64,000 bases of DNA, from contig OU696584.1 of assembly GCA_916048095.2 (NCBI GenBank), positions 449,501-513,500 on the forward strand, read 5' to 3'. The notes under the pieces were generated by a model. It saw only the letters and a list, made by a program, of their open reading frames with translations, had not been told where the DNA came from and did not search any database. Below are positions 28,046 through 58,480 of this stretch, one piece after another; the stretch's first letter is position 1; each line of letters begins with the position of its first letter. The DNA comes from Sacculina carcini. Taxonomy: Eukaryota; Arthropoda; Thecostraca; Sacculinidae. The position numbers and the translations under genes were made by a program.

Positions 28046-58480
<30,435 letters not shown>

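Follow-up and report, generated by a model that had tools for sequence, protein, structure and literature searches.

The window is the whole stretch of Sacculina carcini DNA that we analyzed, 64,000 nucleotides (nt) long, and it holds two LTR retrotransposons, E1 on the minus strand and E2 on the plus strand (Table 1). Both elements look intact and young. TG...CA LTRs and 5-bp target-site duplications were found in E1, in E2 and in several other copies. The Pfam positions in both elements give the order gag, protease, reverse transcriptase (RT), RNase H, integrase, which is the Ty3/Gypsy-type order, with the protease a weak match in E2 (17.8 bits; cut-off, 24.3) and without a Pfam match in E1. 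BEL/Pao elements have Pfam domains of their own, and none of these was among the matches to E1 or E2 pol at E ≤ 0.01. Judged by domain order, the elements are gypsy-type LTR retrotransposons.

Table 1. Coordinates of the features of E1 and E2 in the window
Feature	Position	Strand	Basis or remark
E2 primer-binding site (putative), 12 nt	38056..38067	+	exact complement of tRNA-Phe nt 1-12; flush with 5' LTR
E2 5' LTR, 469 nt, TGTAGG...TCTACA	37587..38055	+	identical to 41767-42235
E2 3' LTR	41767..42235	+	purine-rich CAATCAGGAGGAGG before LTR
E2 target-site duplication TTTAT	37582..37586; second copy 42236-42240
E2 gag, CCHC zinc knuckles	38071..38784	+	inside ORF 37915-38784; Pfam zf-CCHC
E2 pol ORF: protease-like (weak), RT, DUF7047, RNase H, integrase	38727..41771	+	ORF and Pfam
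E1 primer-binding site (putative), 12 nt	10205..10216	-	exact complement of tRNA-Phe nt 1-12; flush with 5' LTR
E1 5' LTR, 310 nt	10217..10526	-	identical to 5944-6253
E1 3' LTR	5944..6253	-	identical to E1 5' LTR
E1 target-site duplication ATCAC (+ strand)	5939..5943; second copy 10527-10531
E1 gag	9425..10201	-	inside ORF 9425-10252; Pfam Retrotrans_gag 24.0 bits (cut-off 24.1) and zf-CCHC
E1 pol ORF: RT, DUF7047, RNase H, integrase	6432..9458	-	ORF and Pfam

Several other features were seen in the window. ORFs with RT-like sequence at 43947-46709 (-) and 51532-53926 (+) are, by eye, probably non-LTR elements, and a reading frame at 59928-61280 (-) encodes a 4'-phosphopantetheinyl transferase (AASDHPPT-like). 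Long tandem arrays lie at 774-1413, at 47777-48256, from 49092 onward and from 55907 onward, with periods of 16, 24, 14 and 24 nt, respectively. A marginal tRNA-like Rfam match was found at 598-653 (+) (30 bits; cut-off, 29); ARAGORN, run on the whole window, found no tRNA.

An earlier note on this DNA had described a 13-nt block next to the 5' LTRs of two element families with unrelated LTRs. This 13-mer, AGCTATTTCGGCA, is present exactly at 38056-38068 (+) and 10204-10216 (-), touching the 5' LTR in both cases, and the E1 and E2 LTRs gave no mutual blastn match at E ≤ 1e-3. The pol proteins of the two elements are ~45% identical. At up to two mismatches, the window contains three matches to the 13-mer (1.14 expected), two of them perfect, and in the genome (264 Mb in 43 contigs) there are 549 copies and none of the reversed control. 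The conserved block itself is 12 nt long, AGCTATTTCGGC, and directly follows the LTR end (...ACA); with ACA included (ACAAGCTATTTCGGC), it has 1,844 exact copies in the genome, and the reversed control has none. The expectation in the window and the zero counts of the reversed controls disfavor a chance origin of the block. The 13th nucleotide, position 38068 in E2, lies outside the conserved block. Thus, the earlier description was right about a conserved block but not about its length, and its two families do share the block but turn out to be families of one clade, two of many.

We examined 22 block sites, one in each of 20 fetched loci plus those of E1 and E2. Repeat pairs were identified at 17 of the 22 (none at L036, L043, L046, L048 and L050), including one pair of only 57 nt (L045) and some others that were ragged or started within a simple repeat. 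The block touches the pair in 15 of these 17 elements, the exceptions being L031 and L033, with gaps of 1 and 6 nt. When the 17 LTRs were compared by blastn, long matches joined only E1 and its near-copies, and the remaining matches were 17 to 44 nt long; the block is kept across families whose LTRs are mostly unrelated. E1/E2-like gag or pol was present in 19 of the 20 fetched loci, and the exception, L050, looks like a chance match of the block. Because L001 to L030 and L031 to L050 were picked by the 13-mer, position 13 is A in these loci by choice. In L034, a single family has blocks at positions 1648 and 5672 (distance, 4,024 nt), apparently in tandem elements.

The same LTRs bear on self-priming in the manner of Tf1 and sushi, in which the 5' end of the transcript itself would pair with the block. 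This mode is described for Tf1 and some other gypsy elements in a passage of PMC6317226, but in the 17 LTRs the longest Watson-Crick run complementary to the block was 4 to 6 nt, not above shuffled sequences, so that the complementary segment that the earlier note had named as its own refutation did not appear. With G-U pairs allowed, the run reached 10 in L035 (4 of 100 shuffles) and 9 in L040 (12 of 100 shuffles). Unrelated LTRs would hardly be expected to share one block, and self-priming leaves the two tRNA identities described below unexplained; we consider it very unlikely.

The block is the exact complement of nt 1 to 12 of animal tRNA-Phe(GAA) in published sequences, in agreement with the earlier note. 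The Drosophila tRNA-Phe northern probes printed in PMC7038984 and PMC6542536 imply a tRNA that starts GCCGAAATAGCTC, and the human tRNA-Phe template printed in PMC11706605 has the same start. The LTR base next to the block is A and forms no pair with nt 13. A search of literature text for the Phe 12-mer or its complement returned, in the excerpts it yielded, tRNA-Phe probes and templates and also one tRNA-fragment listing. In seven copies (L054, L055, L057, L058, L061, L062 and L066) the junction reads AC-G-AGCTATTTCGGC, with G in place of the A before the block, which would lengthen the pairing to tRNA-Phe nt 13.

The tRNAs compared with the block were the published tRNA-Phe and the host tRNA-Ile. 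Three patterns, a blastn query and inspection of 15 GCCGAAATAGCTC sites (none a tRNA) did not reveal a host tRNA-Phe gene, and this absence is weak evidence because of a run of Ns in L065. The blastn query for tRNA-Phe found only two remnants, L051 and L052, which hold the 3' part of tRNA-Phe from nt 38 without the 5' half. Their 3' part is canonical, and one has the acceptor strand TTTCGGC, whose partner is GCCGAAA. A primer derived from tRNA-Phe would require GCCGAAATAGCT in the host tRNA-Phe.

A second type of block shows the same register with another tRNA. In locus L038, a second element, also of the E1/E2 clade, reads ...AAATACA directly followed by AGCTAACCGGCC, and this Ile-type block with its ACA (ACAAGCTAACCGGCC) has 368 exact copies in the genome and none of the reversed control. 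Its complement, GGCCGGTTAGCT, forms nt 1 to 12 of mammalian tRNA-Ile(AAU) in sequences given in PMC13084160 and PMC7698123, and it also occurs within a tRNA-Ile primer listed in PMC5087684. All 10 genome matches to GGCCGGTTAGCTCAG are host tRNA-Ile(AAU) genes of identical sequence (ARAGORN, Rfam), and AGCTAACCGGCC is the exact complement of nt 1 to 12 of this host tRNA. The base before nt 1 varies among the 10 genes. Since two tRNAs match in one register, with nt 1 at the inner edge and nt 12 next to the LTR, the best reading is that a host RNA ending at tRNA nt 12 serves as primer. Thus, the 5' tRNA-Phe fragment proposed in the earlier note, ending near nt 12 with its 3' OH at the LTR edge, gains support from the Ile type, which, as an independent group of families, repeats the register.

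Priming from an ordinary tRNA 3' end, with an offset or with a tRNA that went unrecognized, would be the usual mode for most LTR elements (as stated in PMC10886601 section 3.6). It would place TGG at the LTR edge, where TGG is missing in E1 and E2, as previously noted, and in all 17 elements compared. Within 20 nt, TGG occurs in 7 of the 17, starting 13 to 17 nt from the edge, in or beside the gag ATG. The 3' end of the host tRNA-Ile, ...CACTGGCCA, does not match the block either, and ordinary 3'-end priming appears extremely improbable.

Alternatively, an intact tRNA might be tethered by its 5' strand while its true CCA primer end pairs elsewhere, in a bipartite arrangement like those that, according to part of PMC5371799, exist in Ty1 and Ty3. 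For each of the 17 Phe-type elements, we took the longest stretch complementary to the 3' 20 nt of tRNA-Phe or to its nt 13 to 76; it never exceeded the maximum of 20 shuffles, and only in L033 and L039 did it equal that maximum (nt 13 to 76). By this measure, no second tRNA-Phe-complementary site was found in the 17 elements, nor any 3'-end site, the other pairing that the earlier note had set against its own proposal. Further, nothing at the LTR edge pairs with a CCA end, and it is nt 12 with which this edge coincides. A tethered intact tRNA is therefore unlikely.

To examine the site in elements chosen by gag rather than by the block, we selected 20 loci by hand from 150 scored gag matches (of 2,284 candidates), aiming at a spread of families and, as far as the block lists extended, at loci with no listed block; the LTR edge was read from ACA and not from a repeat pair. 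Eight were of Phe type (7 exact, 1 with one mismatch) and 12 of Ile type (9 exact); among the damaged Ile sites, L074 and L075 have one mismatch each and L071 is partly deleted. No third tRNA type was found among these 20 loci. Three bases stand between TACA and the block in L079, and ACA is missing from L074 and L082. Where loci had not been picked by the 13-mer, position 13 was T or A in the Phe type and C, A or G in the Ile type, with T in the Ile-type site of L038. Related elements thus keep the 12 nt across families but not position 13.

In 25 representatives (18 Phe, 7 Ile), block positions 1 to 5, 10 and 12 were invariant, and the remaining positions differed only between the Phe and Ile types. 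Information was 1.8 bits per base for ACA, 0.8 bits at position 13 (14 of the 18 Phe rows had been chosen with A) and ≤0.2 bits at positions 14 to 30. Since information is high for ACA and the 12 nt and drops past position 12, the site runs from tRNA nt 1 on its inner side to nt 12 on its outer side, where the LTR ends. A search with the open pattern TTACAAGCTANNNNNNC gave 1,134 matches, compared with 217 in the control. Among the 100 of these matches that were listed, we counted by eye 73 Phe sites, 12 Ile sites, 9 one-base Phe mutants, 1 one-base Ile mutant and 5 others, and found no third tRNA type. One of the 5 others, read in L112, was located at the 3' end of an oppositely directed pol-like frame.

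The 12 nt might instead be conserved as coding sequence, read as TSYFG before gag, or as some other cis element. An open frame does lead through TSYFG into gag in E1, in E2 and in further Phe families, and gag is best matched in the AGC-TAT-TTC-GGC frame of the block in 13 of 23 Phe pieces. In the other 10, however, the best match is in another frame although the 12 nt do not differ (L035 and L043 may be frameshifted), and the Ile type has TAA in the TSYFG frame. No synonymous drift was seen in the 25 junctions compared, most of whose rows were chosen by exact block. We regard this reading as highly improbable; the tests above disfavor coding conservation together with self-priming and bipartite or 3'-end priming.

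In a gag tree of 30 pieces (21 Phe, 9 Ile), a branch with support of 100/99 set off the Ile rows, all of which fell on the same side of it. Under midpoint rooting, the Ile rows were nested inside the Phe rows, with one Phe/Ile label change. The tree left out six pieces (four near-copies of E1, one duplicate of L034 and one short piece), a gag match was missing at two block sites, and the labels of L104 and L109 rest on the block listing. This topology fits a single switch, with tRNA-Ile replacing tRNA-Phe. Nucleotides 8 to 12 (UAGCU) are common to both tRNAs, which we infer would be enough for 3'-terminal mispairing during the switch, and the other seven letters of the Ile site match the 5' strand of tRNA-Ile, as would be expected if the primer was copied into the site.

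Two loci have mixed features. L110 (G000:C1:6827080-6827420) carries tandem sites in the order TTTTACA, Ile type, TGTAACA, Phe type, and is possibly a recombinant or a primer-switch intermediate. In L038 (positions 8468-8492), TTTCGG directly after the Ile-type site resembles the tail of a Phe-type site, which is only a hint because its relative L082 has CTTCCG there.

On the strength of these sequence comparisons, the block quite likely serves a clade of gypsy-type LTR elements as primer-binding site for the minus strand, and the primer would be the first 12 nt, at the 5' end, of tRNA-Phe(GAA) or, in a single derived subclade, of tRNA-Ile(AAU). For this priming to work, tRNA nt 1 to 12 would anneal to the element RNA with U12 at the end of U5. 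A nuclease, either the element RNase H acting on the tRNA/element duplex or a host enzyme, would leave a 3' OH at U12, and RT would start by adding a nucleotide opposite the last base of the LTR. During plus-strand synthesis the 12-nt primer could be copied to its 5' end, so that the site would be rewritten when the tRNA changes. The predicted primer species, which would have to exist and to prime, is a 12-nt GCCGAAAUAGCU or GGCCGGUUAGCU with a 3' OH. Predicted duplex energies of block and tRNA are -18.7 kcal/mol (Phe) and -23.1 kcal/mol (Ile); those of the crossed pairs are -11.9 and -10.9 kcal/mol. The release of the Tf1 self-primer by the element's own RNase H offers an analogy for the nuclease step, and we know of no precedent for a tRNA cut that separates nt 12 from nt 13. 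For Ty5, a passage of PMC5371799 cites RNase P as the enzyme that cleaves the primer. A broader proposal is that the clade uses a third mode of priming, by a 12-nt 5'-terminal tRNA fragment that is probably cut from the annealed tRNA by the element RNase H and can move between tRNAs as the fragment is copied into the element; we hold the arguments for and against it to be about evenly balanced.

Retroelements primed by tRNA are thought to start DNA synthesis at the CCA end or, in Copia-type elements, at a tRNA cut near the anticodon. Tf1 and sushi self-priming resembles the proposed mode in that a short internal RNA piece (11 nt in Tf1), and not a CCA end, is the likely primer, but the piece considered here corresponds to a host tRNA, and no complement in the LTRs rose above chance. 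The nearest known system is the half-tRNA priming of Copia-type elements, which published accounts describe for Drosophila copia, yeast Ty5 and the plant Osser, Bryco, Gymco-II and Bianca lineages; there too, the LTR-adjacent site is complementary to the tRNA away from its 3' end. Where a site matches in this way, the 3' end of the primer must come from an internal cut. In copia and Ty5 the 3'-truncated tRNA primes at the anticodon loop (passages in PMC5371799, PMC6317226 and PMC10886601 section 3.6), and in plants these accounts report half-tRNA sites only in Ty1/copia lineages (PMC10886601 section 3.6; PMC6317226). In contrast to these Copia-type systems, the match here covers nt 1 to 12, the extreme 5' end and not the anticodon region, in gypsy-type elements whose integrase follows RT and RNase H. 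Ty3 is likewise a gypsy-type element with a tRNA primer, tRNA-iMet, but it relies on the real 3' end together with a second site (as described in part of PMC5371799), neither of which was found here for tRNA-Phe. In the excerpts of open-access literature that our searches returned, we saw no gypsy-type element described as having a site that matches the 5' end of a tRNA.

A match to the front end of a tRNA beside the LTR points to an unusual start of DNA copying, in many families of one animal genome. A site that ends at tRNA nt 12 would, if real, give 5' tRNA fragments a concrete role as primers and present a new cleavage position to explain. It would also imply a different relation to host silencing by tRNA fragments, since 3' fragments would not match the site. 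Primer-site finders that search only tRNA 3' ends would report no site here.

Searches of viral contigs and genome contigs found no relatives of the elements. One search found eight gag relatives, of which seven were read (P0133 left out); another found P0121 again and, as its second match, P0122, which was also left out. Four of the seven start at or near gag; TSYFG, the translation of ACA followed by AGCTATTTCGGC (the codons cannot be read from protein), stands shortly before gag in all three that extend upstream of it (P0121, P0129 and P0131, from other contigs), a fraction biased upward because the queries contained TSYFG. E2 pol had 814 relatives at E ≤ 1e-20. Among the 120 of these that were listed, identity was 42 to 54%, and the named sources included Trichuris, Trichinella, Macrobrachium, Petrolisthes and Amphibalanus. 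These relatives include pol proteins of Trichuris, Trichinella, decapods and barnacles, and most of the 120 listed carry DUF7047, as E2 pol does.
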